From: a virus
Virus record (IMG/VR): IMGVR_UViG_3300029448_007456
Location: 1-64,000 of that record
DNA length: 64,000 bases
Reading direction: 5' to 3' (one strand)
Shown here: positions 23,554-61,568 of the stretch, piece after piece
Numbering within the stretch: the first letter of the stretch is position 1
Layout of the letters: each line of letters starts with the position of its first letter
The notes under the pieces: generated by a model
What the model was told of the DNA's origin: nothing
The model's database searches: none
What the model saw: the letters and a program-made list of their open reading frames with translations, nothing else
Program-made: the position numbers and the translations under genes

Positions 23554-24147
23554 TTAGGTAAACGCTGTTGCGAGTGTGCCATCACTGAAGTTGACACCGG
23601 TCACATACCAAAGAGCGTCTGTGATACATACATAGTTGAGCATGCTACCAAGGAAACGTCCTTTTGTGTCAGCACCAGCAACAAACTGGTGATCAGCCGC
23701 TGCCGGGATGTCTAGTCCAAGTGTTGCACCTGCGTTAGTAGCCACTACACTACCCACGTTGTCCTTATCAATCATAATAAGGGCGCCTTGTAGCACATCA
23801 GATGATGAAGCTGCGTTGACTGTGAATGTGTTTGATGTCACAGTGGTTCCTAAGTGGAAACTGTAACATAAACCAGCTGTTGCCGCTGGAAGTGTTACCA
23901 CACAACCTGCCGCCGCATTGATAGTAAAAATACTACCTGACTGTGCGATTGTTGGAGCTAGTGTTGCGGCAGTGCTTGCCACAATGTTTTGCTTTAAGTT
24001 AAGTGATAAAGGCACACCACCTGCTGTTGAGCCATCTGAGATAAAGAACTGATTGGAAGAATCATCGAAGAATAAATCTCCGTCTTGACCTGTGTGACTT
24101 GCACGAGCCTGTGTTATAACCTTGGCGTGAAATTTACGTGTTGCCAT
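23554..24147 (-). CDS. Virion surface/fibre protein
   Basis: 197 residues, very Ala/Thr/Ser-rich. HTGQDGDLFFDDSSNQFFIS at the N-terminus and long small-residue beta stretches are typical of phage fibre or decoration proteins. It has its own long 5' untranslated region with several hairpins and a strong ribosome site (AAGGAG), suggesting high expression. No enzymatic motif. Confidence 0.65.
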   Translation of the reverse strand: MATRKFHAKVITQARASHTGQDGDLFFDDSSNQFFISDGSTAGGVPLSLNLKQNIVASTAATLAPTIAQSGSIFTINAAAGCVVTLPAATAGLCYSFHLGTTVTSNTFTVNAASSSDVLQGALIMIDKDNVGSVVATNAGATLGLDIPAAADHQFVAGADTKGRFLGSMLNYVCITDALWYVTGVNFSDGTLATAFT

Positions 24148-24175
24148 TTTGTTTTCTCCTTATAAGAAGTCCAAT

Positions 24176-24261
24176 GTACGTTTTAGGTACTACGCGGAGG
24201 TCCGCATAAGTCTTACATCCTGTAAGCTCTATTAGACACAGTATTTAACACTGTGCCTAAT
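24176..24261 (-). other. Multi-hairpin intergenic leader
   Basis: Four inverted repeats in a row on the minus strand: ATTAGGCACAGT/ACTGTGTCTAAT (24250-24261 with 24231-24242, one G-T), CTTAC/GTAAG (24222-24226 with 24212-24216), GCGGA/TCCGC (24201-24205 with 24194-24198) and GTAC/GTAC. The first may terminate fibre-gene transcription (no T tract). The rest form a structured 5' leader of the gene at 24147. Confidence 0.5.
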
Positions 24262-25627: not shown

Positions 25628-25909
25628 ATGTTCATCAAAGAAACCACAGAAATACACCTACATCAACGCGAATCTAAGTTGGGCAACGTTCATAATTTCA
25701 AACGCAGACGTAGTGTGTATCACTTCAAATGTGACTGCTGTGATAAGGAGTTCATGCGTGACAAATCCAAAGTAACACCCAGCAGAGCATCTAATAATTT
25801 TCATCATGTGTGTGCCAAATGTGATGTCCATAAATATGCTCAGCAAGTAGGCGTCAACATGCGTAAGATTTACAAATTAGATGCCAGTTCAATAGAGGTC
25901 AAAATATAG
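25628..25909 (+). CDS. Small Cys-rich zinc-binding protein (93 aa)
   Basis: Basic protein with a CDCC pair followed 30+ residues later by CAKC, giving a likely zinc site, plus several His (NNFHHVCAKCDVH). Starts the plus-strand island with the large radical SAM gene, whose GTG overlaps this gene's TAG. Probably nucleic-acid binding. No family recognised. Confidence 0.6.
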   Translation: MFIKETTEIHLHQRESKLGNVHNFKRRRSVYHFKCDCCDKEFMRDKSKVTPSRASNNFHHVCAKCDVHKYAQQVGVNMRKIYKLDASSIEVKI

Positions 25910-27768
25910 TGTCAAAACAAAACATTTATCTGTGCCAGTTTTCATCGTGTTATCCTGGTGCTAGAAAGATATTGTATTATCCTTACAGCGTTGGCATGAT
26001 TTGGAGTTATGCTAAAACGATACCGGAAATCGATCAATCATTCCATTGTAAGTTTTTTCTGGAGAAAAAAGAATTCACAGAGATCATAGACAGACTGGAA
26101 GATCCTGCATTGATCGGATTGTCTTCATATGTGTGGAACCACAACTACAATCTTAAACTTGCTGAAATGATTAAAGAAAAATATCCAGATTGTCTCACTG
26201 TGATTGGTGGCCCTAGTGTGCCTTTCAGAGACAAAAACTTCCTACAAGACCATTCCTACATTGATTTTGCAATATATCACGAAGGTGAACTTGCATTCAC
26301 AGACCTACTACTTCACATCAAAAAAAACAAACCAAAACATGATATTCGAGGCATAGGATTTATAGACAGCAACGGAGAAATTGTAGCCAACAAGGCCGAA
26401 AGGATTCCTGATCTTGATAACATCCCTTCACCTTATTCAACAGGACTTTTTGATGAACTCACAGAAGAATACAAAGACACAGACATAATATTAAATGTGG
26501 TAACAGAAACCAACAGAGGTTGTCCATATTCATGCACATTCTGTGACTGGGGAAATGGTACTCTTGGCAAAGTGCATCAAATGGACATATGTAGAACTTT
26601 ACAGGAACTTGATTGGTTCAGTGAAAACAAGATTGAGTATCTGCACATTGCTGATGCAAACTTTGGACTAAAACGTAAAAAAGACTTAGACATAATCGGA
26701 TATGCGGCAAAATTAAAACGCGAAACAGGATTTCCAAGAACTATCAATTATACCTTGAGTAAAAAATTTTTTCCAGAACATTTGGAAATTGCAAAAGTTT
26801 TATTAGACAATCAAATGATGAGACATTTCACACTAAGTCTTCAAGACAGACACGATGATGTTTTAGATGCTATCAAAAGAAAAAACATAGATCATGACTC
26901 ATACATGAACATCAAAGATATGTGCGATGAAAGAAATATTCCAATGTGCACCGAGTTGATGATTCCATTACCCAGACAAACATTTGACAGTTTTATGGAC
27001 CAAATAGAATTTTTGATAAAACACAACATATATCCACATTTTAGTCCCACCACTATTCTTCCTGGTGCTGAAATGGCCGACCCAGAATATCAAAAAAAGT
27101 ATGGAATGAAAACAGTATTAAGTGCCATGAAACACAGTGAATATGCAGAAGAATATGAAGAAGTTGTGATTGAAACAAATACAATGAAAAAAGAAGATAT
27201 GAACGAAGCACTGATCTTGGTTTGGTTGATTGATGTATTTCAATCATACGGATTTGCTGACATAGTTTGCGACTTTTATTGTAAAACAGAAAACAAAAGA
27301 TTAAGAGATTTTTATCGTTTGCTGTTTCAGTTTTTTGTTGATAAACCAGACAGCATGTTGTTTAAGTATTTTGATCCAGTTAAAGATCATGTCAATACCA
27401 AAGACACCTATAAATTATATCCAGGTAAAGATACAGAAGGAATAATACAAGAAATAGGATATGATTGCAGAGAACAATTTTTCAAAGAATTTGAAACATT
27501 CATGCACACTGTGATTCCAGAACAATACATCAAAGACTTATTGGCCATACAAAAAGTAAGGCAAACACATTCGTATGACAAAACAGAAGAAATAGTACTA
27601 TTAGATCAAGATGTTTATGGATATACCAAACACGAGTCCGAACTAGCGCCAGCCACATACAAAATAAAATACAAACCCATCGAAAAACATTTCGAATACT
27701 ACTGCAATTTTATGGTGCACGGGGTAATGTTCAAAAGATGGAAACCTTTAGAAATAAAGAAAATTTAA
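25909..27768 (+). CDS. B12-binding-domain radical SAM enzyme (class B type), copy 1
   Basis: 619 residues from a GTG that overlaps the previous stop. The N-terminal ~160 residues form a cobalamin-binding Rossmann-like domain (PALIGLSSYVWNHNYN, CLTVIGGPSVPF). The radical SAM core has CPYSCTFCDWG (CX3CX2C) at about 208-215, then HIADANFGLKRKKD. Class B enzymes use methylcobalamin or a bound cobalamin for methylation and related chemistry. The substrate is unknown. It is clearly paralogous to the gene at 54.9 kb. It converges on an Fe-S assembly operon that could mature it. Confidence 0.82.
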   Translation: MSKQNIYLCQFSSCYPGARKILYYPYSVGMIWSYAKTIPEIDQSFHCKFFLEKKEFTEIIDRLEDPALIGLSSYVWNHNYNLKLAEMIKEKYPDCLTVIGGPSVPFRDKNFLQDHSYIDFAIYHEGELAFTDLLLHIKKNKPKHDIRGIGFIDSNGEIVANKAERIPDLDNIPSPYSTGLFDELTEEYKDTDIILNVVTETNRGCPYSCTFCDWGNGTLGKVHQMDICRTLQELDWFSENKIEYLHIADANFGLKRKKDLDIIGYAAKLKRETGFPRTINYTLSKKFFPEHLEIAKVLLDNQMMRHFTLSLQDRHDDVLDAIKRKNIDHDSYMNIKDMCDERNIPMCTELMIPLPRQTFDSFMDQIEFLIKHNIYPHFSPTTILPGAEMADPEYQKKYGMKTVLSAMKHSEYAEEYEEVVIETNTMKKEDMNEALILVWLIDVFQSYGFADIVCDFYCKTENKRLRDFYRLLFQFFVDKPDSMLFKYFDPVKDHVNTKDTYKLYPGKDTEGIIQEIGYDCREQFFKEFETFMHTVIPEQYIKDLLAIQKVRQTHSYDKTEEIVLLDQDVYGYTKHESELAPATYKIKYKPIEKHFEYYCNFMVHGVMFKRWKPLEIKKI

Positions 27769-36912: not shown

Positions 36913-37920
36913 CTAGTTTAGAGTTGCATTGACGGCATCAATGCCATCTTGGTCTAGCCATTTAATCCATACATCAGGATATGCTTTGAGGAACGATTCC
37001 ACAGATTCTTCAGCAGTTTCTTGCTGTTCATCCATTTTTACGATCAAACTGTTGAACAAGTTGATGTCAATGGATCTTGTGCCTAGATACTGCATGACAT
37101 CGCCATTTTGTGACATGTCACTTGATACCATTGTGTACAGAGTTGGCACACTGAAATCTGTAATTTTAGGTGAATCACAATCTTCCTTTTGGATACAATT
37201 GACCCAATGATCTGTTCCTGCAAATCCTTTGCCTGTTGGGATAGGTTGTAGATCGTACTTGCTAACCATGCCTGCTGGTTCCCAATAGAATCCAAACCAG
37301 TGATCGTCACTGTTGCCTGCCTTGCCAATACTACCGTCTAGGCCAACACCTGAACCTGGATCAACTATTTCCCAACCTTTTTCTTCTGCTCCATAGGCTT
37401 CTAAGATTTTTACTGTTGTGGTTGCACAACCCCACCCCACTGGACAGACATAAACTTTGCCGCCAAATATTTGAGGATTGTCTAACACATCTTCAACAGT
37501 TTTAAGTTCTGGATATGCTTCAAGTGTCTTAGGAAGCACATACCAATTTTCGCTAGCTCCACCTGAGATTGGCTCTTCGTTGGCAATAACTCCTGTGCCT
37601 CTTGCCAACGCATCGTCAACAATGCCTTGCACAGTTGATGCCCACAGTTCGCTGGCAACATCTGGTTCGCTTTTTTCTGCAAGGCTGGTGGCCAGTCCTA
37701 CAGTTCCGCCTTGAATCATTTGAATATTACAACCATACACTGTTTCTAGTATATACTTGTCCAAGTGGCCTAAGAATGCCGCAGATGACCATGTCATTTC
37801 TGCAACAGTGATATCGCCACAAGTTGTGTCAGCAATACTTGTCTTAGATTGCAACATTAATGCACCTGAGAACAATAATGCCACCAACATTGCTAATGTT
37901 ACTCCTGTTTTAGTCTTCAT
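36913..37920 (-). CDS. Glycine betaine/proline-type ABC substrate-binding protein (OpuAC/ProX-like)
   Basis: 335 residues with a signal peptide (MLVALLFSGALMLQS...IADT). Mature start TTCGDITVAEMTWSSAAFLG, then GGTVGLATSLAEKSEPDVASELW and WKGFAG-like segments fit the OpuAC periplasmic-binding fold, with Trp residues for quaternary amine binding (ENWYVLP, DHWFGFYWEP). No ABC permease or ATPase is seen, so it would work with host transporters. It is the last gene of the oxygenase operon. Such binding proteins are abundant in oligotrophic marine alphaproteobacteria. Confidence 0.8.
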   Translation of the reverse strand: MKTKTGVTLAMLVALLFSGALMLQSKTSIADTTCGDITVAEMTWSSAAFLGHLDKYILETVYGCNIQMIQGGTVGLATSLAEKSEPDVASELWASTVQGIVDDALARGTGVIANEEPISGGASENWYVLPKTLEAYPELKTVEDVLDNPQIFGGKVYVCPVGWGCATTTVKILEAYGAEEKGWEIVDPGSGVGLDGSIGKAGNSDDHWFGFYWEPAGMVSKYDLQPIPTGKGFAGTDHWVNCIQKEDCDSPKITDFSVPTLYTMVSSDMSQNGDVMQYLGTRSIDINLFNSLIVKMDEQQETAEESVESFLKAYPDVWIKWLDQDGIDAVNATLN

Positions 37921-45391: not shown

Positions 45392-46408
45392 TTATTTAGA
45401 AGCCTTGGCTTTTAAATCCATTGTGGTTAAGTTTTCTACAATTGCTTTGACTTCTGCCGCCTTGTCTTCTGCAAGTGGCACCAGTCCGAGTGAACCAAGA
45501 AAACCATCAATAGATGTGGCTTCATCTGATATGAACAATTTAGCATATTCCTCAATGCCAGGAACGATGCCAACATGATCTTTTTTGATGTAGTAAAACA
45601 GAGGTCTTGCTATTGGATATTCATATGATTGAATTGTTTCCAATGAAGGCTTGACTCCGTTCACTGTAGATCCTTTGATGGCATCTTTATTTTCCAACAG
45701 ATATGAATAACCAAAGAATCCAAATCTATCAGGACTGTCTTTAAGTTTGTTCACAATGAGTGTGTCGTTCTCACCCATCTCTGTGGTTGCACCATCTTCT
45801 CTGAAGTGTTTGCACCCGTTTTTTTCTGTTTGTAGGTCTTTGGCTCCAGCTTCTTTACAGCCTTTTTTCATCACTAATGATTCCCAAGCATCTCTGGTGC
45901 CCGATGATGGTGGTGCCACCAATATATCGATTTTCATGTTTGGCAGTGATGCATCAATTTCTGACCACTTTGTGTATGGATTAGGCACTAGTTTGCCGTC
46001 CACAGGCACTTCTTTGGCCATTGCTAACCACAACTGTTTAGTGGTCACTTTCATGTCAGGACCTTCCAGTGAGTTGGCAAACACAATGCCGTCGTTGCCT
46101 ACAATAACTTCAACAACACTGTCAACGCCATTGTCTAAACACAATTTGGCTTCTTTGGACTTCATAGCCCTTGAAGCATTTGTGATGTCTGGATGTTCTA
46201 GGCCTACACCGGCACAGAACATTTTCATACCACCGCCTGATCCAGTGGATGCCACAGTGGGTGCTTTTGAACCAGCTTCGCTCAGTCTTTCTGCCACAAC
46301 AGTAGAGTATGGATACACTGTAGATGAACCTACAATGTTAATGATATCTCTTGCCTGTAGTGTGGAAGAAAGGAGAACTGAAGCTAGTAGGATTACTAAC
46401 TTGTTCAT
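45392..46408 (-). CDS. pstS: Periplasmic phosphate-binding protein PstS
   Basis: 338 residues from MNKLVILLASVLLSSTLQA, a signal peptide. The mature part contains NIVGSSTVYPYSTVVAERL, STGSGGGMKMFCAGVG and APPSSGTRDAWESLV, the phosphate-binding loops of PstS/SphX proteins, and EDGATTEMGENDT. The longer frame from 46441 lacks a ribosome site, whereas the chosen ATG has AAAGGAAA. It captures phosphate for the host Pst transporter, a known phage strategy in phosphate-poor ocean. The promoter has a Pho-box-like element. Confidence 0.88.
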   Translation of the reverse strand: MNKLVILLASVLLSSTLQARDIINIVGSSTVYPYSTVVAERLSEAGSKAPTVASTGSGGGMKMFCAGVGLEHPDITNASRAMKSKEAKLCLDNGVDSVVEVIVGNDGIVFANSLEGPDMKVTTKQLWLAMAKEVPVDGKLVPNPYTKWSEIDASLPNMKIDILVAPPSSGTRDAWESLVMKKGCKEAGAKDLQTEKNGCKHFREDGATTEMGENDTLIVNKLKDSPDRFGFFGYSYLLENKDAIKGSTVNGVKPSLETIQSYEYPIARPLFYYIKKDHVGIVPGIEEYAKLFISDEATSIDGFLGSLGLVPLAEDKAAEVKAIVENLTTMDLKAKASK

Positions 46409-46455
46409 GATAAATTTCCTTTCATTGTATGGAGTATCCATAGATATATATTAAA

Positions 46456-46559: not shown

Positions 46560-46787
46560 TCAATGAATGGATACAGTTTTGCAATGATCACGTCGATTGA
46601 ATCCAGTGCCTTCTAGTTCTTCTTGTTTTGCAAACAGGCAAAACCATGCAGAATCTTCACAGTCTTTCTGACGATCATAAACACCATCGGATATAATTGC
46701 TTTGTGGGTATTGGGTTTACGATAATAGAATGCATGACCTTTGAGTTGGTCATCATAATACACAGTGATATGTGGTTCACGTGTCAT
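46560..46787 (-). CDS. Small phage protein (75 aa), unknown function
   Basis: Start chosen at MTREPHITVYYDDQLKGHAF because AATAAATA lies 5 nt upstream. The longer frame from 46835 would read through the motif. It has a His/Tyr-rich strand and Cys-containing helix (DRQKDCEDSAWFCLFAKQEE). Function unknown. Confidence 0.55.
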   Translation of the reverse strand: MTREPHITVYYDDQLKGHAFYYRKPNTHKAIISDGVYDRQKDCEDSAWFCLFAKQEELEGTGFNRRDHCKTVSIH

Positions 46788-47397
46788 GCAAATATTTATT
46801 GAAATTTTGCGTGGTATCCCTTGAAAAATTTGCATGTCTATGCCACTGTTTTGGACATTGATATTCTGCAGGTGCTATCCAAACAAAATTGACATGTGGA
46901 TAACTTTCAAACAGTTTGTCCAATTGATGATGCCAATACTTAGGATCGACTGCTTTGTTATCATATCCATTTGTATTGGCATACACATTAGTGTAGTTGT
47001 TTTGTTGTGTCATATCGAAACCGATCAGATAGCAAAGATTGGTTGTCTGCATGTTCCATTCATAGTTTTTAAATGCACAAGCAATGTTGATTGCATGTGG
47101 ACCTGAATTCCAATGCCAAGGGTTGTCTTCTCTTTCAGTTCCATTGTATGGCAGTTCTGGATAAGCACTTACCATGAACTTAGTATTCCAGTTTGGTCTA
47201 GTGTATAACTGTCCTGGGTAGTCAGATGATAATACCTCAGCAACCATTCGCTGATCAGCGGCTGACACTATGTCTGGATGAAAGTCTCTTACGATTGCGT
47301 TACAGCCGACAGTGACTCCTTGCTTTTTACAAGAGTCAAGATCTATCGGCTGTCTGCTCTCACCATTGCCTATTACAAAGGTGATGCGTTTTTTCAT
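46777..47397 (-). CDS. Rossmann-like protein of unknown function (206 aa)
   Basis: MKKRITFVIGNGESRQPIDL then KQGVTVGCNAIVRDFHPDIVS is a Gly-rich strand-loop-helix followed by an acidic patch (SAADQRMVAEVL), reminiscent of MptE-like/motility-accessory or sialyltransferase folds. The C-terminus has many Asn/His/Trp (NPWHWNSGPHAINIACAF). Family unassigned. A glycosyltransferase-like role is possible. It follows btuB by a one-base overlap. Confidence 0.55.
   Translation of the reverse strand: MKKRITFVIGNGESRQPIDLDSCKKQGVTVGCNAIVRDFHPDIVSAADQRMVAEVLSSDYPGQLYTRPNWNTKFMVSAYPELPYNGTEREDNPWHWNSGPHAINIACAFKNYEWNMQTTNLCYLIGFDMTQQNNYTNVYANTNGYDNKAVDPKYWHHQLDKLFESYPHVNFVWIAPAEYQCPKQWHRHANFSRDTTQNFNKYLHDT
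46793..46800 (-). promoter_or_regulatory. T4-type late promoter motif AATAAATA
   Basis: Minus-strand AATAAATA, 5 nt upstream of the ATG at 46787, inside the 3' end of the upstream gene. Confidence 0.5.
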
Positions 47398-49175
47398 TAA
47401 AATAGATATTTTAAACTGACAGCAAATTCTCTGCCAGGCTGTGTATATCCCATTGGTCTTTCATATGCCAAATCAGTCACGTTGTTGATTGTGGCAGTTA
47501 CTTCAGTGGCGTCACTCACTTTATACAAAAGTCCGATGTCTGTGTAGTGTTGTTCACTATTGGTCACAGTTGACCAATTGGTTGGGTGAATATCTTTGTG
47601 TTCACCATAGTAGTTCCAATCATACCAAACTTTCAACTTGTCTGTGACATCATGACCTAAACCAACCACAGCAGAATACTGCGGGCGTCTAGTTAATTGC
47701 ACATCATCTGAATCCTGTGCATGCACGGACGTTACACTAAAGTTGATTGTTGTGTCATCATACTGTTGTTTGTTCTGCAACTCCCAACCTTCCATAGAAC
47801 TGGTTCCAGTTGTGTTGTTATAAGTTGAGTTTGAATAAGATATCATGTTGTCAATTTTTGTGGAAAACACAACAAACTTGCTGTCCATACTGACATATTC
47901 GTTTTTGACTTTTGACACCAATCCAATTTCGTTGTTCACTGAACGTTCTTCTTCAAGACTAGCATTGCCTGAATATCCGAAGTTGTCAGCACCATACATT
48001 TCATACAGTGTAGGCGCACGGAATCCTGTGTTGTGTCCTGCAATGGCTGTCATGTGGTCATTTAATTTGTAACCAACACCAAGTCGATACGTGTTAACAT
48101 CATCATGTAAACTGTTAGTATCATGTCTAACTCCTGTGTTCAACAACACATTACCTAGTTTGTAATCTGCATTTAGAAAATATGCATTTGCTTGTGCTGA
48201 TTTGTCCACAGATGAATTGTAAGATCCTTTGTTGTCAAATTTTGCTGTGTAGGCTGATCCTTCTGTTCCAACGGTGTATTCTACTGGCCCAAATGTATTG
48301 GTATGGGATAGTTTGATATGATTAGTTGAACTGTCGTAAGTGTCTATCTCTGTGCCATTCACATATTCACGGTCATGCACGTTTCTATCAATGACAAAAT
48401 TTACAACATCTGATTCGTATCTTGCTTGTAAAAAGTAAAAATCTGAATCTGATGTGTAGTCAGTGTCGTCAGTGCCACCTGCATCAAGGTCAGCACTTGC
48501 ATCTCTATACACCACTGTGGTGCCAATTTTTGCATTTTCAGTGTAGTGCGTTGAATCAAAGTTCAATGTCTGATACTGATATCCGTCATTGTCTCCGCCT
48601 TCTACAATAGAATATCCATCGGATGATTCTTGATACATTTTAATAGAGTATATTCCTGATGGTTGTGCAGTAAAATAGTTTACTCCAAGGCCTGCGGTGT
48701 TGTTAGATCCAGTCTTAAGTTCTACACTGTCTTCTAATGTGCCTCCAGTGTTGATGTTAATAGCACCACCAATTGCACCAGGTCCCCAAAGTGTGCTCTG
48801 CGATCCTTTGTATAAATCAATTGAACCTGCATAAGTCACTGAATCTACACCTGCATCAAACAATCCGTTAGTTGTAGAATGGTCAGTTACTGGTGATCCG
48901 TTGATCATAAACAGTGTGTGGTTGGAATTAGTTCCTCTTGTAAACACAGAGGTTTGTTGTCCACGTGGTCCAGATCTTATTGCTTGAAATGAAGTATTGC
49001 TGTCCAGCACTTCACCTATGGTCACAGTGTTCTTATAGGACTGTGTTTTGACTGTGTCCACATTTGTTGTTAATAAACTTTTGTCACTTGGCACAATATA
49101 CAGTGTGACATCAAGAGCACTGGCAGTTGCTATTGATCCAAAAACAAAAGTCAAGATTATCGTTAGTATTTTCAT
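47397..49175 (-). CDS. btuB: TonB-dependent cobalamin receptor, BtuB-like
   Basis: 592 residues from MKILTIILTFVFGSIATASA, a signal peptide. The plug domain shows TIGEVLDSNTSFQAIRSGPR, SVFTRGTNSNHTLFMINGSP (compare BtuB RGTNxxHxLVLIDG) and STLWGPGAIGGAININTGG. A 22-strand-type barrel follows and ends PGREFAVSLKYLF. BtuB-like features plus the cobalamin riboswitch upstream argue for B12 uptake. A clear TonB box (ETVVVT type) is not evident after the signal peptide. The nearest candidate is LYIVPS. AAGGAG precedes the ATG. Confidence 0.85.
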   Translation of the reverse strand: MKILTIILTFVFGSIATASALDVTLYIVPSDKSLLTTNVDTVKTQSYKNTVTIGEVLDSNTSFQAIRSGPRGQQTSVFTRGTNSNHTLFMINGSPVTDHSTTNGLFDAGVDSVTYAGSIDLYKGSQSTLWGPGAIGGAININTGGTLEDSVELKTGSNNTAGLGVNYFTAQPSGIYSIKMYQESSDGYSIVEGGDNDGYQYQTLNFDSTHYTENAKIGTTVVYRDASADLDAGGTDDTDYTSDSDFYFLQARYESDVVNFVIDRNVHDREYVNGTEIDTYDSSTNHIKLSHTNTFGPVEYTVGTEGSAYTAKFDNKGSYNSSVDKSAQANAYFLNADYKLGNVLLNTGVRHDTNSLHDDVNTYRLGVGYKLNDHMTAIAGHNTGFRAPTLYEMYGADNFGYSGNASLEEERSVNNEIGLVSKVKNEYVSMDSKFVVFSTKIDNMISYSNSTYNNTTGTSSMEGWELQNKQQYDDTTINFSVTSVHAQDSDDVQLTRRPQYSAVVGLGHDVTDKLKVWYDWNYYGEHKDIHPTNWSTVTNSEQHYTDIGLLYKVSDATEVTATINNVTDLAYERPMGYTQPGREFAVSLKYLF

Positions 49176-49199
49176 AAAGTCTCCTTGCTTTGTTCTACC

Positions 49200-49276
49200 C
49201 CTAGGTGGCATTCGGACTATAACCGTATCAAGTAATGTGAACGAATTTCACGTCGCTTTCCCACTATGCTTTTAGG
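49200..49276 (-). promoter_or_regulatory. Cobalamin riboswitch, short env8/AdoCbl-II-like (Cbl-IIa) class
   Basis: On the minus strand: CCTAAAAGC opens P1, then AGTGGGAAAG, the core GACGTGAAATTCG hairpin, ATTACTTGATACGG with loop TTATAGT and CCGAATGCCACCTAGG closing P1 (CCTA with TAGG). As I recall it, this is nearly the same as the crystallised env8 hydroxocobalamin riboswitch from marine metagenome. It sits 24 nt before the btuB-like ATG, with the AAGGAG ribosome site immediately after P1, consistent with translational control by the L5-L13 kissing loop. Confidence 0.9.
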
Positions 49277-49285
49277 AACTATTGT

Positions 49286-49314
49286 ATTTTATATGTTTTA
49301 GATGTGTTTGTCAA
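49286..49314 (-). promoter_or_regulatory. Sigma70-type promoter of the riboswitch-btuB transcript
   Basis: TTGACA (49314-49309), 17-nt spacer, TAAAAT (49291-49286). Predicted start near 49279 puts the first P1 base a few nt into the RNA. Confidence 0.75.
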
Positions 49315-49328
49315 GAACTTTGATTGTT

Positions 49329-49775
49329 TTATGCAAATCTAAATTTTGGTATTTCAAAAGTGTGCTTCTGCAGATATTCGAACATTTGTGCAAAGATCAA
49401 TGTGCTGATCAACATGTTCACATAGAACGGAATGGCCATCATATAACAAGTGATCAAACCTTCCAGAGTATAACCATACCATCCACCGGTCCACACAGCA
49501 AAATTAGTCACAACAAAAAACAGTGTTGCACTAAAAATTGCACCACGTTGAAAATATGCAATTGCAAATAGACTGGCGTATACCCACAGCATGTAAGAAT
49601 GAAACCCAATTATTGCATCTGAAATAATGTATGCAATTAAACATGGCAGTACACTGACAAGACCAGTCATCATAAACACAGCAATCACTGGTGTAAAGTT
49701 TGGTGGATGCGGAAGCAGTCTAGACGCCACTATGCAAAAAAGCATAAAAATTGTGGTATAAGTATTTTTTGACAT
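49329..49775 (-). CDS. Polytopic membrane protein, DUF6580-like
   Basis: 148 residues with four to five TM helices. SRLLPHPPNFTPVIAVFMMTG matches the RLxPHPPNFTPxxA signature of DUF6580-type integral membrane proteins, resembling small ECF-transporter S-components. Located directly upstream of the riboswitch-btuB unit in the same direction, so it may assist cobalamin or other vitamin uptake (inference). The promoter motif AATAAATA is farther upstream (17 nt) than usual. Confidence 0.6.
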   Translation of the reverse strand: MSKNTYTTIFMLFCIVASRLLPHPPNFTPVIAVFMMTGLVSVLPCLIAYIISDAIIGFHSYMLWVYASLFAIAYFQRGAIFSATLFFVVTNFAVWTGGWYGYTLEGLITCYMMAIPFYVNMLISTLIFAQMFEYLQKHTFEIPKFRFA

Positions 49776-49823: not shown

Positions 49824-51350
49824 ATGATTGATTTCCTATTAATCACTGGCCCTGTGAGAGACTTAACTTTTGCACCAATGGCACTAGCACAGTTAAAAAG
49901 TATCAGCGAAGCGGCTGGATTCACATGTAAAACCATAGATTACAATCAAAAATACTTTCATCACCAATGCAACAAAGACAAAAACAAGTTTTATGAACAA
50001 ACCAAAATGTTTAGAAACACTTTGCCACTGACCTATGATGAAATTGCCAACAGTCATTGTGGTACTTGGTTGGCACATAAAGTAATACAAGATGTCAAAA
50101 AATACAATCCTAAGACAGTTGGGGTGAGCAGTTTTAGTAGATACAACAACATATCTTGCGTGTTGATCTGTAAAATTATCAAACAGCATTTTGCACACAT
50201 CAAAATTATTATTGGTGGATATGGTCTACACAATCCCCTAAATTATCTAGATGCCTTTGATGCAACTCTACAATCACAACCCGAAGTTGGCGAGTTACTC
50301 AAAGTCAACAACTTATGTGACACCTATATTATCGGTGATGCAGAACACAAATTGATAGAATGGTTGAAAGATCACACAGTGGATTATTCTGGATTGAACA
50401 AAAGGATTATTGATGCCAATTGGACTGATACTCCTTATGCTGACTTCGAGGATCTCGACATAGAAAATTACGACTATCACAAAGGATTAATACTACCAAT
50501 GACTGGCAGTAAAGGATGTGTAAGAAAATGCACTTTCTGTGACATCCCACATAACTTTGGTAAATTTTCGTTCAAGTCAGGAAAATCAATAGCAGATGAA
50601 GTGATGCATCTTTATGAACACTATGGAGCCAAAACAATTTATTTTACAGATTCGCTGGTGAATGGCAGCCTCAGTGCATTCATTGATTATGTAGAAACTT
50701 TAGCAGAACTAAAAGCAAAGAAAGGGTATGACGATCTAAGATGGACTGGACAATACATTGTGAGACCAGCACATCAAATTCCTGATCCGGAAAATTATTA
50801 TGCTCTGTTGAATGAAAGTGGAGCAGAAGGACTTACTATAGGTATTGAGTCTGGCAGTAACAAAGTTTTGGCTGAAATGAAAAAACACTGCACTGTGGAT
50901 GATATTCTCACTGAAATCAATTATTTTTCCTCACATGATGTGTCTTGTGGTATATTATTGTTTCCTGCATTTCCATCTGAGACTAGACAAGATTTTTTAG
51001 CCACAGTGAAAATGTTGAAAAAATTACAACCATATTGGTGCAACGGTACAATAAATCTTGTAAACTTCAACACATTTTATGGCAATGAAAATTACAGTGA
51101 ATGGGGTAAAAAGACAGAACAAGACGGCATGTATTCACATCCCAATGATCATAGTTTATGGTGGTATAAAAATAATCCAAAACTAGATTACAAAGAGATT
51201 GTGTTTAGGAGACTGGTATTGAATAAGTTGGTTGAAACTCTCAATATTCCAACCAATCACGAATATGACTACATGACCCAAATTCATAATTATTTTACAA
51301 CAAACATAGGAAAGGTAAAAAAGTTTCATGCTGACATTAAAAAACATTGA
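49824..51350 (+). CDS. B12-binding-domain radical SAM enzyme, distinct subtype (508 aa)
   Basis: The N-terminal B12-like Rossmann domain starts MIDFLLITGPVRDLTFAPMA and includes VGVSSFSRYNNISCVLICK and IIIGGYGLHNP. The radical SAM core has GCVRKCTFCDIPH (CX3CX2C), followed by IYFTDSLVNGSL and GIESGSNKVLAEM. Class B-type architecture, likely methylation or related radical chemistry. Substrate unknown. It is diverged from the 26- and 55-kb copies. Overlaps the next gene by 23 nt. Confidence 0.8.
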   Translation: MIDFLLITGPVRDLTFAPMALAQLKSISEAAGFTCKTIDYNQKYFHHQCNKDKNKFYEQTKMFRNTLPLTYDEIANSHCGTWLAHKVIQDVKKYNPKTVGVSSFSRYNNISCVLICKIIKQHFAHIKIIIGGYGLHNPLNYLDAFDATLQSQPEVGELLKVNNLCDTYIIGDAEHKLIEWLKDHTVDYSGLNKRIIDANWTDTPYADFEDLDIENYDYHKGLILPMTGSKGCVRKCTFCDIPHNFGKFSFKSGKSIADEVMHLYEHYGAKTIYFTDSLVNGSLSAFIDYVETLAELKAKKGYDDLRWTGQYIVRPAHQIPDPENYYALLNESGAEGLTIGIESGSNKVLAEMKKHCTVDDILTEINYFSSHDVSCGILLFPAFPSETRQDFLATVKMLKKLQPYWCNGTINLVNFNTFYGNENYSEWGKKTEQDGMYSHPNDHSLWWYKNNPKLDYKEIVFRRLVLNKLVETLNIPTNHEYDYMTQIHNYFTTNIGKVKKFHADIKKH

Positions 51351-54892: not shown

Positions 54893-56809
54893 ATGCTTAA
54901 TTTAGTGTTAGCACAACCTGGTTTCAGTTGGGGACCATCTCATCTGAATGCTCATTATCTTCCTTATTCAGTTGGTTGTTTGTGGGCGAAATGTCTAGAC
55001 AATCAAACAATTGTTGAAAATGTTGAACTTTTAGACATGATTGCTGTGCGTGAAGATATTCAACACTTTGTTGACAAATATGATAAAATTGATGTTATTG
55101 GTTTTTCTTGCTATGTTTGGAATTACAATTATGTCAATGCTTTAGCCAAAGCAATCAAACGCAAGTTTCCTGAGTGTGTTGTGGTTTTCGGAGGCCCAGA
55201 ACCAGAACACAGTGATCAAGACATATTTGTCAATAAACCTTGGCTTGACTGTGTGGTGGTGCAGGAAGGCGAAGTTAGTTTTGAAAGAATTCTTGAATGC
55301 TTGATTACTAAAAAAAGTTTGGAAACAATTCCTGGATTGGTAATCAACAAACGGGGTCAAAGACTGGTTACACCCATATCACAAAGAATAACTGATCTTG
55401 AGTCCTTGCCTTCACCCTACATCAAGGGCGTGTTTGATCATTTGTTTCACAAACACCCTGATATCACTTGGACAGCCATAATGGAAACCAACAGAGGTTG
55501 TCCTTACAAATGCACATACTGTGATTGGGGTAGCCTCACATTAAGCAAGATCAAAAAGTTTTTGCTGGACAAAGTGGAACAAGAAATCAAATGGATGAGT
55601 GATAAAAAAATAGACTTTGTTAACATAGCAGATGCCAACTATGGCATTTTCAAAGAAAGAGATTTAGCCATCACACGACTATTTGGCAAATATAGATCAA
55701 TCACTGGATGGCCAAAAGCAGTCACAACCAATTGGACAAAAAATGCCAAGAAGCATGTGTTGGACATTGCTCAAGAATTCAAGGATCAAGGCATTGCAAA
55801 CAGTGTGACAGTCAGTTTACAGAGTCTACACGATGATGTGTTGGATGCTGTTGAAAGGAAAAATTTTGAACTCAACAATATCGAAGAAATGTCCATGGCT
55901 TGTTTTGAAAAACAATTACCAGTGGCTGTTGATTTAATTTTGGGATTGCCTATGGAAACAAAAAAATCTTGGAGGCAGACATACTACAAGTTATTTGATC
56001 TAGACATTCATCAAGATTTTTACACACATCAAGCCATGCTGTTGGAAAATGCACACATGAATCAAAATCAATTGCATCAGTATGGTATGGAAAAATTTAC
56101 AAGGCCCATCAAGTTTACTGAAGACAATATGCAACACACTGAATACGCAACCTTTGTCAAAAGCACAAACACAATGACGTATGATGATATGATTGACTGT
56201 GCAATGCACACCAATTGGATTTATGCTCTGCATCACACTGGCCTAAGTTCTGAGCAGAGCAAATTTTTGCACAAACACAGCGGGATACCTTATGCAACTT
56301 TTTACAATGGTCTGATTGAATTTTTGTTGCAACATGATTTTATGCACAATTGTTATCAGCAAAGCGTTGAGCAAATCAAGATGTCCTACAGTGATATAAA
56401 CCAACCCACTTTGGAACAAATTGACCTTAGCCTAAGTGGTGAGTTTAATATACTTGAATGGAATATTATTAATAAAAAGATTGAAACTGATATACAAAAT
56501 TGCATCAAAGAGTTCATTGACACACGATTTACAATTGACAAGGATCTAGTTGATCAGTTGGACGTATATGCACAACTCAGTTACTTGACATTTGAAAATC
56601 ATACGAAGTTTGATCAACTGTCACATGAATTTGATTATAATTTTTATGAGGTCAACAATTTAAATGCTGACATGGCAAAAGGCAAACATACATATGTTTT
56701 TAAGAAAAAGTTATCACAGACTTTTGAAAACACTGTGGACTATGCAAATTACATGATTGTGCGAAAACGTAACATTCCTTCAAAGAACATCATCACACAA
56801 CAAGATTAG
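54893..56809 (+). CDS. B12-binding-domain radical SAM enzyme (class B type), copy 2
   Basis: 638 residues. The N-terminal cobalamin-type domain reads VIGFSCYVWNYNYVNAL and CVVVFGGPEPEH. The radical SAM core has METNRGCPYKCTYCDWGSL, then FVNIADANYGIFKERD and SLQSLHDDVLDAVERKN. Strongly similar in layout to the 25.9-kb copy (same NRGCPYxCTxCDWG and IADANxG blocks), so a within-genome duplication or paired acquisition. CATAAATA, one base off the late motif, lies 11 nt before the ATG. Substrate unknown. Confidence 0.82.
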   Translation: MLNLVLAQPGFSWGPSHLNAHYLPYSVGCLWAKCLDNQTIVENVELLDMIAVREDIQHFVDKYDKIDVIGFSCYVWNYNYVNALAKAIKRKFPECVVVFGGPEPEHSDQDIFVNKPWLDCVVVQEGEVSFERILECLITKKSLETIPGLVINKRGQRLVTPISQRITDLESLPSPYIKGVFDHLFHKHPDITWTAIMETNRGCPYKCTYCDWGSLTLSKIKKFLLDKVEQEIKWMSDKKIDFVNIADANYGIFKERDLAITRLFGKYRSITGWPKAVTTNWTKNAKKHVLDIAQEFKDQGIANSVTVSLQSLHDDVLDAVERKNFELNNIEEMSMACFEKQLPVAVDLILGLPMETKKSWRQTYYKLFDLDIHQDFYTHQAMLLENAHMNQNQLHQYGMEKFTRPIKFTEDNMQHTEYATFVKSTNTMTYDDMIDCAMHTNWIYALHHTGLSSEQSKFLHKHSGIPYATFYNGLIEFLLQHDFMHNCYQQSVEQIKMSYSDINQPTLEQIDLSLSGEFNILEWNIINKKIETDIQNCIKEFIDTRFTIDKDLVDQLDVYAQLSYLTFENHTKFDQLSHEFDYNFYEVNNLNADMAKGKHTYVFKKKLSQTFENTVDYANYMIVRKRNIPSKNIITQQD

Positions 56810-57097: not shown

Positions 57098-58465
57098 CTA
57101 ATTGCCCTGGGTGGTAGAAAGAGTGCAACCTGCTTGTGTGCCACAGGTCATGTCAATGCTGTAATCTTGATCAGTGGATCCTTGCTGTGACAGATCAAAA
57201 TCAGTGGAATAGCCATCTAGATCAACACGAGCCGCATGGTTACCAGTGCCAGTTTGACTGATATCCACATCATGTGCATAACTGCCTGTACCAAGTGTTA
57301 GATCTAAATAGTGTTCACCTGTGCCTGACTGATTGATATCAACAGTGTTGTTGCCATTGTCTATGTCCACAAACAAAAACTTATCCCCATCGTTTAACTG
57401 TTGCATGGTGATCACATTAGAAGAAGAATCTAAATCCACACTCATGAAGTGCTCTGAAGATGTTGTACCATCATTGCGTTGTTGTAAAGTCAATGTGTTG
57501 GTTGATCCATCAATATCAATCAGCATTCTGTGATCTCCTACATCAGTGGCATAGTCACCTTGGGATAGATTCAGTGTGTTGGTATTGCCTGTGATGTCTA
57601 GTCCTATGCCGTTCCTACCACTGCTTCCAGATGTAGTCACATTGCCTTGATCAATATTGAGTGTGTTGTCGTTGCCTGTGATTTGTGAATCACTGGACCA
57701 ATCACTGCCAACAACAAAATTATCATTGCCTGCTTGTTCAATATTAATTGTGTTGTTGTTGCCTTGCACATTCATTTTAATCCCGCTGTCTGATGTGCCT
57801 TTGGCTGTGTTCACTGCTGTGGTTTGTGAAGATGTGATTGTAACATTAACTGTGTTTTGGTCAGTGGTTGCAAAACCAGAGTTAGGCATATCTAACCAAC
57901 CACTTGTAGAGTTTAAACTTAAATTAGATAAACTATAATGTATATCCATATTAGCAGAACCACCCCATTCATACCAGTTAATTTGTATTGGGTACCATTG
58001 ACCACCAACACCAGAAAATGAACCACTAGAGTTCCAATATGTTGGTCCTTGTTGAGCCCAGTCAGATATTACTTTAGTATTATTGATGTTTACAATAAGT
58101 CCATCATCATTACGACCAGCAAAATAAACTGTTGATGTTTGACCTGTGGTTCCTGGATGTTGCCAATAACCGGTGATAACTACCATTCTCTGATTAGCAC
58201 CATAATTATTATTATGAAGAACTATATTTCCACTATTCCAGTTGTAATTTAAACTGTCAGTAGTACCAGTTCCTTGTGATAGACCTACATAACTTGGACT
58301 AGAATTATTACAGGTAGAGAGATATGTATAGTTGTTAAAACAAGGTGACTCTACATAAGGTGCATAATGACTAATTGCAAATACTTCATAATTTAAACTT
58401 CCTGCATATGCACTTGAACAAAGCAAAAACAAGATGCTACTGATTTTGAAGAATGCTAATTTCAT
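57098..58465 (-). CDS. PA14-like plus curlin-repeat secreted protein
   Basis: 455 residues with a signal peptide (ISSILFLLCSSAYAG). Residues ~60-190 resemble a PA14/GLEYA carbohydrate-binding domain: VYFAGRNDDGLIVNINNTK, ISDWAQQGPTYWNSSG and WYPIQINWYEWGGSANMDIH. From ~230 on there are curlin-like repeats of about 20 residues (NNNTINIEQAGNDN, NTNTLNLSQGD, SNVITMQQLNDGD, HDVDISQTGTGNH). The fusion joins a glycan-binding head to an amyloid-type body. It is last in the curli-like module. A start overlap with the fecR-like gene couples them. Confidence 0.78.
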   Translation of the reverse strand: MKLAFFKISSILFLLCSSAYAGSLNYEVFAISHYAPYVESPCFNNYTYLSTCNNSSPSYVGLSQGTGTTDSLNYNWNSGNIVLHNNNYGANQRMVVITGYWQHPGTTGQTSTVYFAGRNDDGLIVNINNTKVISDWAQQGPTYWNSSGSFSGVGGQWYPIQINWYEWGGSANMDIHYSLSNLSLNSTSGWLDMPNSGFATTDQNTVNVTITSSQTTAVNTAKGTSDSGIKMNVQGNNNTINIEQAGNDNFVVGSDWSSDSQITGNDNTLNIDQGNVTTSGSSGRNGIGLDITGNTNTLNLSQGDYATDVGDHRMLIDIDGSTNTLTLQQRNDGTTSSEHFMSVDLDSSSNVITMQQLNDGDKFLFVDIDNGNNTVDINQSGTGEHYLDLTLGTGSYAHDVDISQTGTGNHAARVDLDGYSTDFDLSQQGSTDQDYSIDMTCGTQAGCTLSTTQGN

Positions 58466-59534
58466 TTTCCTGTCCGTTAATGGTGTAATCTATTATTTCG
58501 TAATCTTGTTGTTGCACATTTAATATATAAGTGTTTTCTTTGTCCAGCCTTAATTCAATAAAGTTGCCTGCCGCATCTTCTCTGCTCCACACAAAATGTG
58601 GATCTTCGTCTAGCAGTATAATTCCTGTTGTTGGATCTTTTCCAAACCGCTGTCCTTCGACTTTTTTGTCAAATTCACTTCTCATCTGTTTGGCCAGTTC
58701 TTCGTTGATTTGTTTTAGAATATCCACAAGAAAGTTTTGTTCTAAAAAATCAATATCCAATCCCGTTGCCCAATTTTCAATTTCTTCTTCTAAAGCATCG
58801 ACATTAAGATCATCAAATTCCAAAAAGTCAATGTCAAGTGCATTGGCCACAGCATTATAGGATGAATTGTCCTGTTGTTCTTGGATTTCTTTTGGCTTGC
58901 TAATAATTAACAAATTGTTGATCATATCTTCTTCTAAACTAAGAATCACTGGCCGCATGGGCACACTTGCAACAGTATCAACAACTGTAGCCTGGAATGC
59001 CTGGTTCATTATGACTTGACCAGCATCTGATTCAACTGATATTTCCCCCACATAACATTTTCCATCTGTGTTGCAACTTGGCAATAATATAATTGTGCTA
59101 CTTCCTATTTCGTCCACTGTCATGGCAAAATCAGTGCCTCTAACTCCTATGGTTGCTGTTGGAGTTTGTATCAATACATTCTGTTTGGAGTTTTTGGCAA
59201 TTTGTCCTGATGCATAACGCACAGTGCCAAGACCTGCTTTAAGCGACAACTTGCCTGTGCCACTGGCAGGATCATACACAAATTCATCAATAACAAGTTT
59301 TGAATGTTGGGTGATATCTACTCTGGTTTCATCAACAAATTCAATGGCAGTCTTGCCTTTGCCAGTTCGGACTGTGTCGTATGAAAACACATCAAGGTCA
59401 ATTTCAGTGACTGCTTCTTCGCCATCAGTACGCTCCACAGCACCAGTGCCTTCGTGCAGTATGACATTCCCTATACTGGCCCATGAGTTTACTGTCAGCA
59501 CAAAACTGCACAGCAAATAAAAAAGAAAGTTCAT
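58437..59534 (-). CDS. FecR-domain secreted protein
   Basis: 365 residues with a signal peptide (MNFLFYLLCSFVLTVNSWA). The FecR domain is seen in DTVRTGKGKTAIEFVDETRVD, LSLKAGLGTVRYASGQIAKN and IQTPTATIGVRGTDFAM. The C-terminal half is acidic and helical, then beta. No TM helix after the signal, so it is periplasmic or surface-exposed rather than an anti-sigma factor. FecR-domain proteins next to CHASE2 cyclases are a recurrent bacterial pairing, and such a cyclase is encoded divergently 3 kb away. Confidence 0.82.
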   Translation of the reverse strand: MNFLFYLLCSFVLTVNSWASIGNVILHEGTGAVERTDGEEAVTEIDLDVFSYDTVRTGKGKTAIEFVDETRVDITQHSKLVIDEFVYDPASGTGKLSLKAGLGTVRYASGQIAKNSKQNVLIQTPTATIGVRGTDFAMTVDEIGSSTIILLPSCNTDGKCYVGEISVESDAGQVIMNQAFQATVVDTVASVPMRPVILSLEEDMINNLLIISKPKEIQEQQDNSSYNAVANALDIDFLEFDDLNVDALEEEIENWATGLDIDFLEQNFLVDILKQINEELAKQMRSEFDKKVEGQRFGKDPTTGIILLDEDPHFVWSREDAAGNFIELRLDKENTYILNVQQQDYEIIDYTINGQENEISILQNQ

Positions 59535-60217
59535 TAGTCTGTTTGACTAATGTCTATATCCGCGTTATCACCTGATGTTGTTAGTGTAATCATTTGATCG
59601 TTGATGCCACTCTGTACAATGTCCACATCTGCGATGCCACCTGTATGTGTGTGTATTAAAGTGTGTCCATTTACATCACCGTTGCCATCAATGTCAACCA
59701 ACCAGTTGTTAGTGTCACCGTCAACTGTGATTGTTAATATAGCACTGGTACCGTCGATGGTTGCCGCAATAACGTTTGAGTCATCATCACCTGCAGATGT
59801 AATTGTTGCAGTTGTGTTTGATGCATCTGATGTTTCGCCAATATCTAAATCAATATCATTGCTGTTTCCTACCATGGTCACATTAGCTGTTACAGTGCCA
59901 CAAGAACTGTTATTTCCTGTGCTGTCACACATGATATCAATATCATTGCTGTTTCCTGTAACATTAAATGTACCAGTATACGAAGCACCATTGATATCAA
60001 ACTTTAATATGTTAGAGTTACCAACTTGATCAATATCAATTGTTGTGGTAGCTCCAGTGACAGTTGATGCAGTAGTCGAGTTACCCACTTGGTTGTTTTG
60101 ACCATCTTGTGTGATGTCCAAATCCAAAGTAGCACCTGATTGTGTCACATAGATATCATTGGCGTTTGCAGATGTTACAAACAAAAACGATAGTATTAAT
60201 GTTATTAGTTTTGTCAT
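59534..60217 (-). CDS. Curlin-repeat protein (CsgA/CsgB-like)
   Basis: 227 residues with a signal peptide (LITLILSFLFVTSANA). The mature protein is Asp/Asn/Thr/Gly-rich with repeats such as IYVTQSGATLDLDITQDGQN, TIDIDQVGNSNILKFDI, NVTGNSNDIDIMCD and IVQSGINDQM, the alternating hydrophobic-polar QxGxxN pattern of curlin amyloid subunits. It would be secreted through CsgG and assemble on the cell or virion surface. Overlaps the fecR-like gene by one base. Confidence 0.78.
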   Translation of the reverse strand: MTKLITLILSFLFVTSANANDIYVTQSGATLDLDITQDGQNNQVGNSTTASTVTGATTTIDIDQVGNSNILKFDINGASYTGTFNVTGNSNDIDIMCDSTGNNSSCGTVTANVTMVGNSNDIDLDIGETSDASNTTATITSAGDDDSNVIAATIDGTSAILTITVDGDTNNWLVDIDGNGDVNGHTLIHTHTGGIADVDIVQSGINDQMITLTTSGDNADIDISQTD

Positions 60218-60232
60218 TTATTTGTGTATCCC

Positions 60233-61030
60233 CTAAAAATATTTAATTTTCCATAACCCTTCTTTATCACCCAGTTTTAATAATTCCAGCACACAATATT
60301 CAATTGCACTGCGTACCGCATAATTTACTGGTTCATTTGTAGCAACACCGGTCTCAACTTCAAATGCTTTTGTGCTCATGTCTAAAAACCTAAACACATC
60401 AGCCGACGTCTTATGGCTTGCAATTGTTTTTGTTGCTTCTGCTGTTAGTAAAACTTCTCCAGTTTGCACAGCAACTAATCTCATGCTGACTGTGACTTGA
60501 TCTATTCTGTATTCTTCTGACAGGCCGATGCCGAAATATCTAGCACCATCACCACCAGAAGCCACATTTGCATCATATCCAATGATGCCTCCTTCAACAA
60601 GTAGTCCTGCAAACACAAGCGGTTTTAAAACATTTCCTACTTCTTGACTTCCATCATACAGTTCTCTAGTTGATCTTATCAACTGTCTTTCTTTGACCAA
60701 ACTGTCTAAACCTTTTCGTTCAACCACTCTGAACCATGTGCCTTCGCCCACTGCCTTGAGTGCTGAAATCACCCAGACATCTGCACCTTGTGAAACTGCC
60801 ATAGACAGTTGACTAAACTTTGTGCTTGGCTTACGCTGTCCTGTAAGATCAGGAAACTTATATACAGCAATGGTTATCACTGGTTGTTCAACAAGTGGAG
60901 GCAATGATTGTAAAATTTGCATTGTGGGTGTGCCTTCGATGAAAGGATCATCACCACTTTTAACTGTGTTCTGTGTGGTAGCACAAGATGTCAATATCAA
61001 AAGCATGCCTATTATAATAAAATTTTTCAT
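60233..61030 (-). CDS. csgG: Curli secretion channel CsgG
   Basis: 265 residues with lipobox LTSC (Cys16). Matches to E. coli CsgG by eye: ITIAVYKFPDLTGQRKP (VYNIQDETGQFKP), WFRVVERKGLDSLVKERQLI (WFIPLERQGLQNLLNERKII), LLVEGGIIGYDANVASGG, GARYFGIGLSEEYRIDQVTV, VQTGEVLLTAEATKTI and VFRFLD, NEPV. This is a full-length outer-membrane nonameric pore. The constriction segment (KPSTKFSQLSMAV) lacks the Tyr51/Asn55/Phe56 residues of E. coli. Confidence 0.92.
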   Translation of the reverse strand: MKNFIIIGMLLILTSCATTQNTVKSGDDPFIEGTPTMQILQSLPPLVEQPVITIAVYKFPDLTGQRKPSTKFSQLSMAVSQGADVWVISALKAVGEGTWFRVVERKGLDSLVKERQLIRSTRELYDGSQEVGNVLKPLVFAGLLVEGGIIGYDANVASGGDGARYFGIGLSEEYRIDQVTVSMRLVAVQTGEVLLTAEATKTIASHKTSADVFRFLDMSTKAFEVETGVATNEPVNYAVRSAIEYCVLELLKLGDKEGLWKIKYF

Positions 61031-61031
61031 G

Positions 61032-61490
61032 TTAAAAATTAAAGTCTCCTAGTGGAACAGACATTGTGGTTACATTGTTGTTGGGGTCTGTAATTGTTAG
61101 TGTTATTATTTCGGTTGATGTGTCCTTGACCCAATAAATTGTTGATCCTTCAACGTTTGCTGTGCCTGAAGTCGGACATGTGCCTGTGCATGATGTTCCA
61201 AACATGTTGTCCACCAATTGTTTGGACAGGTTTGCATATATTCTTGATTCAACATTCTTAATAAATTTGTTTATGGTTGTGTTGTTTGCTAATCTTTCAG
61301 CCGCAGCTGCCGCAGATTTTCTTTCATCTTTGAGATCATTCTTTCTGCTATACTGCAATTGTTCAATTGATAACACATGAGAAGAATATCCCTGCTTGCT
61401 GAAAGAAGGATTTCCAAATTCATGATGCAACTGATCAGCATGTGCAGAAGTCATAATAATAGCCAGTGTAATAACCAAGGTTTTTAACAT
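61032..61490 (-). CDS. csgF: Curli assembly factor CsgF
   Basis: 152 residues from MLKTLVITLAIIMTSAHA, a signal peptide. ATG chosen because ATTAAATA lies 5 nt upstream; the longer frame to 61568 has no support. The mature start DQLHHEFGNPSFSKQGY resembles CsgF (TFQFRNPNFGG) whose N-terminus plugs CsgG. LSIEQLQYSRKNDLKDERK, FIKNVESRIYANLSKQLVDN and TLTITDPNNNVTTMSVP match the helix and C-terminal beta of CsgF. A Cys pair (GTSCTGTCPTSG) is unusual. Confidence 0.85.
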   Translation of the reverse strand: MLKTLVITLAIIMTSAHADQLHHEFGNPSFSKQGYSSHVLSIEQLQYSRKNDLKDERKSAAAAAERLANNTTINKFIKNVESRIYANLSKQLVDNMFGTSCTGTCPTSGTANVEGSTIYWVKDTSTEIITLTITDPNNNVTTMSVPLGDFNF

Positions 61491-61495
61491 GCTTG

Positions 61496-61503
61496 TATTT
61501 AAT
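61496..61503 (-). promoter_or_regulatory. Late-promoter-like motif ATTAAATA driving csgF-csgG unit
   Basis: Minus-strand ATTAAATA, 5 nt upstream of the csgF ATG at 61490. The motif for the plus-strand gene lies about 50 bp away in the same divergent interval. Confidence 0.5.
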
Positions 61504-61553
61504 GGTTTTTGAACCCAAATGATGTGCAGACACTTATGAACAGTTGTGCAAAA

Positions 61554-61561
61554 GTTAAATA
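61554..61561 (+). promoter_or_regulatory. Late-promoter-like motif GTTAAATA, plus strand
   Basis: GTTAAATA on the plus strand, 7 nt before the ATG at 61569; it decides that start. Confidence 0.45.
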
Positions 61562-61568
61562 CACACAT

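Follow-up and report, generated by a model that had tools for sequence, protein, structure and literature searches.

The closest described system to the locus reported here is env8 (PDB 4FRG, 4FRN; Rfam RF01689), the usual structural reference for hydroxocobalamin riboswitches. Its structure was solved with hydroxocobalamin (PMC10907184), and its ligand pocket is lined by G19, A20, and A68 (PMC11838749). The ribosome-binding site of env8 lies in the loop of P13, and docking of this loop hides the site and represses translation (PMC10907184, PMC10653944). The literature describes env8 only as environmental or marine metagenomic. Among phages, the paper on the OM43 phage Melnitz lists glutamine switches and one riboswitch before psbA, and the cobalamin riboswitch in that paper is found only in the OM43 host (PMC9004378). 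An earlier survey of pelagimyophages found no riboswitches (PMC7029224). The glutamine riboswitches of Melnitz and Mosig share with the present locus that a metabolite riboswitch is carried by a marine T4-like phage, but they differ in ligand and in the gene concerned, which is tmRNA (PMC9004378). Phage riboswitches are few in the literature searchable here, and none described in it senses cobalamin.

In this study, we analysed a window of 64,000 nucleotides, positions 1 to 64,000 of the IMG/VR virus record IMGVR_UViG_3300029448_007456 (114,778 bp). An earlier note, made from the letters alone, had read in it a phage btuB gene controlled by an env8-type cobalamin riboswitch. The record carries genes for a baseplate/fibre connector, a clamp loader, a phage ATP-dependent DNA ligase, a phage-type exonuclease, and virion proteins. 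It also encodes NrdA/NrdB-like proteins, the NrdA being 68-69% identical to NrdA of cyanophages and of Pelagibacter phage Mosig, while Gp23 was not found in the 114,778 bp. Since genes for phage structure and for replication share this contig, the record is that of a T4-like tailed phage. A bacterial origin of the contig, which would have refuted the note, was rejected because this is a virus record with phage genes.

Table 1. Coordinates of the features of the btuB locus and of possible B12 users in the window
Feature	Position	Strand	Basis
Sigma-70-like promoter TTGACA-N17-TAAAAT of the btuB leader	49286..49314	-	Sequence and consensus scan
Cobalamin riboswitch aptamer, env8 type	49198..49278	-	RF01689 match, pair counts
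Aptamer P1	49278-49273 with 49203-49198	-	Window
L5 kissing bases CUU	49232-49230	-	Window aptamer
P13 hairpin AAAG-CAAGGAGA-CUUU	49176..49191	-	Sequence; directly before the btuB ATG
Ribosome-binding site AAGGAG, in P13 loop CAAGGAGA	49186-49181	-	Sequence
BtuB-like TonB-dependent receptor, 592 aa	47397..49175	-	Pfam, PDB, NCBIfam, predicted fold
DUF6580 membrane protein, 148 aa, btuB partner gene	49329..49775	-	PF20221, 92.1 bits (cut-off 27)
Promoter-like site of the DUF6580 gene	49813-49785	-	Window
206-aa gene, PHROG 30607, function unknown	46777..47397	-	Coordinates, PHROG match; start overlaps btuB end
B12-binding radical SAM protein, possible cobalamin user	54893..56809	+	PF02310, 50.8 bits, above cut-off
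B12-binding radical SAM protein, second possible cobalamin user	25909..27768	+	PF02310, 39.7 bits, above cut-off
Radical SAM protein beside the cassette, opposite strand	49824..51350	+	Radical_SAM, 54.8 bits

The riboswitch in the btuB leader

The promoter, the aptamer, and the ribosome-binding site followed by the btuB-like start codon were all present on the minus strand where the earlier note had placed them. The promoter matched the consensus at 11 of 12 positions, and a similar TTGACA-N17 promoter also precedes the riboswitch of the related phage locus L004. Four promoter-like sites were found in the 801-base region versus 3.5 +/- 1.9 in shuffled versions, so by itself the promoter does not exceed chance expectation, whereas the riboswitch match is far above it. 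A cmscan search against all of Rfam, the check that had been proposed, identified the aptamer as RF01689 (AdoCbl-II) with 78.4 bits and an E value of 6.4e-18. The match extended over the full length of the model (positions 1-81 of 81) and passed the gathering score of 36.5 bits. The aptamer has 77 nt, is closed by CCTA...TAGG, and contains the core GACGTGAAATTCG; G19, A20, and A68 are all present in it and in that of L004. The btuB ATG at 49175 lies 24 nt past the TAGG of the aptamer and 5 nt past AAGGAG, and the AAG of the P13 loop, within AAGGAG, is complementary to the CUU of L5. Minimum-energy folds of the single-stranded leader, obtained with a tool that considers neither pseudoknots nor ligand, were no better than those of shuffles (z +1.1), and this line of evidence was dropped as uninformative.

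We then counted base pairs over 11 env8-type leaders, using slid partners as the control. The results showed that 89.6% of the cells were paired, compared with 26-49% in the slid versions. P1 was paired in 100% of the sequences, with two of its pairs changed on both sides, and one compensatory change was observed in P13, where pair 89-102 is A-U in the window instead of G-C. The RF01689 helices P1, P3, P4, P5, and P6 were kept across relatives, with three pairs changed on both sides; model pairs 14-75 and 24-40 were unpaired in every one of the 11 sequences. The CUU/AAG complementarity of L5 and L13 was invariant in the set (11/11), and evidence for covariation of the kissing pairs therefore comes only from comparison with other types. 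A second riboswitch type found in phages has CCAGG in L5 and CCUGG in L13, while a family of streamlined bacteria (G766 and its relatives) has CCUG and CAGG, and this reciprocal change lends support to the kissing loop. A loss of pairing in P1, P3, or the kissing loop, which would have counted against the riboswitch, was not observed.

The BtuB-like receptor, its neighbours, and possible B12 users

The receptor contains a TonB barrel (PF00593) and a Plug domain (PF07715), both above the Pfam cut-off. Its best relatives among all PDB sequences are E. coli BtuB chains (1nqf, E 8.7e-12), at about 20% identity, and its top NCBIfam match is the B12 receptor TIGR01779. The AlphaFold2 model (pLDDT 82.5) was also matched best by BtuB (1nqg, TM 0.86, E 1.5e-35); BtuB filled the top fold matches, and siderophore and haem receptors ranked behind it. 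TIGR01779 scored 166.8 bits, whereas 599.7 bits are required of an equivalog, and we therefore describe the protein as BtuB-like and not as a BtuB equivalog. Sequence and model identify it to this extent, and binding and transport of B12 are inferred. The leader of E. coli btuB belongs to another cobalamin class. No match to the receptor or to the DUF6580 protein was found in the INPHARED phage collection.

Six helices were predicted for the DUF6580 protein. We considered an ECF S-component or a BtuM-like transporter and rejected both, as the predicted fold had no PDB match; the protein is thus left as a membrane partner without an assigned role. DUF6580 was found on at least 80 viral contigs (L125-L204). 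A btuB-like gene lies beside it in 39 of 80 loci, and no btuB-like ORF is nearby in 41 (some loci are cut short), indicating that DUF6580 may also act alone or with other receptors. Three phage loci (L164:2884-2976, L169:1540-1631, and L201:2884-2976) have RF01689 before DUF6580, and no btuB-like gene was found in them. On the other side of the receptor, the 206-aa gene probably shares the btuB transcript, and the ORF after btuB in L004 is related to it, judged by eye from a similar N-terminus.

The best NCBIfam match of both B12-binding radical SAM proteins was the KedN5 methylcobalamin-dependent C-methyltransferase, with 231 bits for the protein at 54893..56809 and 208 bits for that at 25909..27768, each below the cut-off. 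The radical SAM protein beside the cassette matched PF02310 only weakly (20.5 bits, cut-off 32.1). Among 23 records, a B12-binding domain over the cut-off was found only in the present record (G000) and in that of L004 (G002). We accordingly rejected the idea that phage btuB generally goes together with B12-binding radical SAM genes of the phage, as only 2 of 20 records with a phage btuB had one over the cut-off. The other phages are thus not explained by a consumer of their own, and any benefit to them would have to arise from enzymes of the host. A need for B12 through class II ribonucleotide reductase was also rejected, because no match to NrdJ exceeded the cut-off and NrdA/NrdB-like proteins are encoded instead.

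Elsewhere in the window, a PstS-family phosphate-binding protein and a glycine betaine/choline-type binding protein (OpuAC) are encoded at 45392-46441 and 36913-37920 (both minus strand), which suggests a wider nutrient-uptake theme in this phage. A curli-like cluster at 57098-61568 (minus strand) comprises CsgF, CsgG, a FecR-domain protein, and curlin-repeat-like proteins; curli pores have been described in Melnitz-like phages (PMC9004378). A freshwater-2 RNA (RF02980, 68.3 bits) at 24145-24227 (minus strand) lies just before a 197-aa ORF at 23554-24147. This RNA also occurs in phage loci L132 and L136 and abuts an ORF in L132, so the orphan RNA may be a phage leader.

Relatives in phages and bacteria, and the identity of env8

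When IMG/VR was scanned with the receptor as the query, 4 loci and then 23 were obtained, with some repeats. L004, whose receptor is 62% identical, carries an RF01689 riboswitch of 80.7 bits. In L002 and L005, the DUF6580 and btuB genes touch and there is no riboswitch, so that it is in the window and L004 that the two genes are separated by a promoter and a riboswitch. Many related phages have the receptor without any Rfam cobalamin riboswitch. The second riboswitch type (82-93 bits) precedes DUF6580-btuB or btuB in further phages. Some of these are jumbo phages, with gp32-like and UvsX-like genes adjoining, and they include a 242,646-bp contig whose capsid protein is 74.6% identical to that of PA5oct-like jumbo phages. 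In L018 (5290-5410) and related type-2 leaders, a stem could form over AAGGA and the DUF6580 start codon AUG, with CCGCUGU/ACAGUGG as an alternative pairing; type-2 leaders probably use an off-switch different from that of env8. Seven further loci (L132, L133, L135, L136, L139, L146, and L151) have a glutamine riboswitch at about 690-755, some 500 nt upstream of btuB-DUF6580, and the stretch between it and btuB resembles a permuted tmRNA by eye. Their btuB genes have no Rfam cobalamin riboswitch.

A pattern scan for env8-type switches yielded 29 viral contigs; stricter pattern scans gave no matches. The results showed that all 29 switches lead into a receptor ORF 23-26 nt past the TAGG, and that in most cases this ORF encodes a second BtuB-like protein, about 535 aa long. 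The search of viral contigs for the aptamer beside TonB receptors, which had also been proposed, thus found it before BtuB-like genes in every case. For comparison, we used a presumed 102-nt sequence of env8 (4FRN); its positions 10-79 were fixed before these contigs were seen and the remainder afterwards. L041 (9824-9925) and L053 (1680-1781) matched this sequence at all 102 positions, many other contigs differed at 1-4, and the exact 88-nt stretch from the core to P13 was found in six contigs. Beside the switch of L041 lie genes for collagen-like tail fibres and further genes of phage tails. The contig of L057, with 4 mismatches, carries a terminase and Gp23 (496 bits), the latter 88.7% identical to that of Pelagibacter phage Mosig and 76.4% to that of OM43 phage Melnitz. 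The published letters of env8 include A9, G12, U13, and U69 (PMC12138973). All seven published nucleotides that were located agree with the presumed sequence. The env8 sequence itself was not found in the literature text, and its phage identity is therefore a strong lead, not proof.

The statement that the window's RNA differs from env8 at only a few positions was correct for the aptamer, which aligns without gaps over its full length and is identical at 72 of 80 bases, G19, A20, and A68 included, to a contig matching the presumed env8 sequence. It did not hold over the whole 102 nt, where 17 mismatches were counted, mostly in the P1 end and the linker. The two RNAs also share the ribosome-binding site in the P13 loop and the L5/L13 complementarity, whereas the P13 stem is AAAG/CUUU in the window and GAG/CUC in env8. 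They differ in recorded source as well, a phage for the window and a metagenome for env8.

In bacteria, RF01689 exceeded the cut-off in 3 of 369 genomes of Gammaproteobacteria, with 53 bits at most. One order of small genomes had it in 18 of 25 (at most 53.5 bits), and the phylum in 5 of 399. The streamlined family of G766 (mostly 0.6-1.6 Mb), which we infer from genome size to resemble SAR11, had it in 27 of 147, with up to 101 bits. Switches of this family belong to the same Rfam family as that of the window and also stand upstream of btuB-like genes and DUF6580 (the operon order in bacteria is riboswitch, btuB, DUF6580), but they differ in the kissing-loop sequence and in the expression platform, CCGCTG...GGCCAGG...AGCAGTGGC. 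The env8-type pattern, with up to 3 mismatches allowed, was absent from all 397 genomes scanned of this family, whose receptors are the closest bacterial ones. When 34 receptors were placed in a tree, three from the G766 family were sister to the env8-carrying phage receptors. A single clade of phage BtuBs, which an initial tree including 15 bacterial rows had shown, was rejected after closer bacterial receptors were added (p-AU 0.0015). The env8-type switches fall on two distinct branches of this tree, and in L109 a receptor of the env8 type occurs together with the second riboswitch type, indicating that switches and receptors have been exchanged.

The suggestion that env8-type sequences in ocean data may come from phages is supported by the 29 viral contigs, one of them with Gp23 and terminase, and by the absence of the pattern from the 397 bacterial genomes, while the identity of env8 rests on the presumed sequence and seven published positions. 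On balance, and with some reserve, we lean towards env8 being a phage RNA and env8-type switches being largely phage-specific regulators of B12 receptors, which move between receptor lineages and have kissing loops unlike those of related bacterial B12 switches. Because these loops differ, regulation of a phage leader may be independent of that of the host leader within the same cell.

Proposed mechanism and rival explanations

We consider it likely that this T4-like marine phage expresses a BtuB-like receptor from its own promoter under an env8-type riboswitch, that cobalamin shuts off its translation, and that the receptor imports B12, although there are no binding, expression, or transport data. 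When cobalamin is scarce, the P13 loop with AAGGAG would be free and the receptor would be made. Once cobalamin is bound, L5 would kiss L13, the ribosome-binding site would be covered, and translation would stop. This off-switching is inferred, as is the ligand, which judging by the conserved pocket would be methyl- or hydroxocobalamin rather than adenosylcobalamin. The receptor would bring B12 into the infected cell, and the inferred benefit would plausibly lie in supplying the phage's own B12-binding radical SAM enzymes and host B12 enzymes.

A real riboswitch could also stand before a receptor that serves as a decoy, or as a replacement for the host receptor against superinfection or colicin-like killers, with the regulation left over from a bacterial donor. 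BtuB is a known phage and colicin receptor, and the many related phages that have the receptor without an Rfam cobalamin riboswitch indicate that the regulation is dispensable. We nevertheless regard this reading as improbable: separate lineages in the receptor tree have either retained the riboswitch or acquired it again, it is paired with DUF6580, which in bacteria also accompanies btuB under the same riboswitch class, and a decoy would gain nothing from B12-dependent shut-off. It is hardly credible that leader and gene are passenger host DNA, acquired by transduction or misassembly, and not a functional phage module. The observed recurrence in at least three phage contexts (T4-like tail genes, gp32/uvsX-type genes in jumbo phages, and that of the window), the lack of the env8-type pattern in the closest bacterial family, and the conserved open frames and RNA pairs all oppose it, even though the sister position of phage and bacterial receptors means that exchange with hosts has occurred.

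Doubt about the ligand weighs somewhat more, yet we still think it unlikely that the RNA senses another corrinoid or adenosylcobalamin instead of methyl- or hydroxocobalamin. The Rfam name of the family is AdoCbl-II, and cobalamin riboswitches accept several corrinoids (PMC9600662); against this, the pocket bases of env8 are kept in the window, and the env8 structure contained hydroxocobalamin (PMC10907184).

The aptamer class was already known, and what is new, as far as the libraries show, is that a B12 riboswitch precedes a B12 receptor gene of phages, and does so in several of their lineages. A phage origin would give env8, which serves as a drug-design model and an RNA-imaging tag, a biological source. 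The phage appears to sense how well the infected cell is supplied with B12 and to adjust its own B12 receptor, and virus-driven vitamin uptake in the ocean becomes directly testable.
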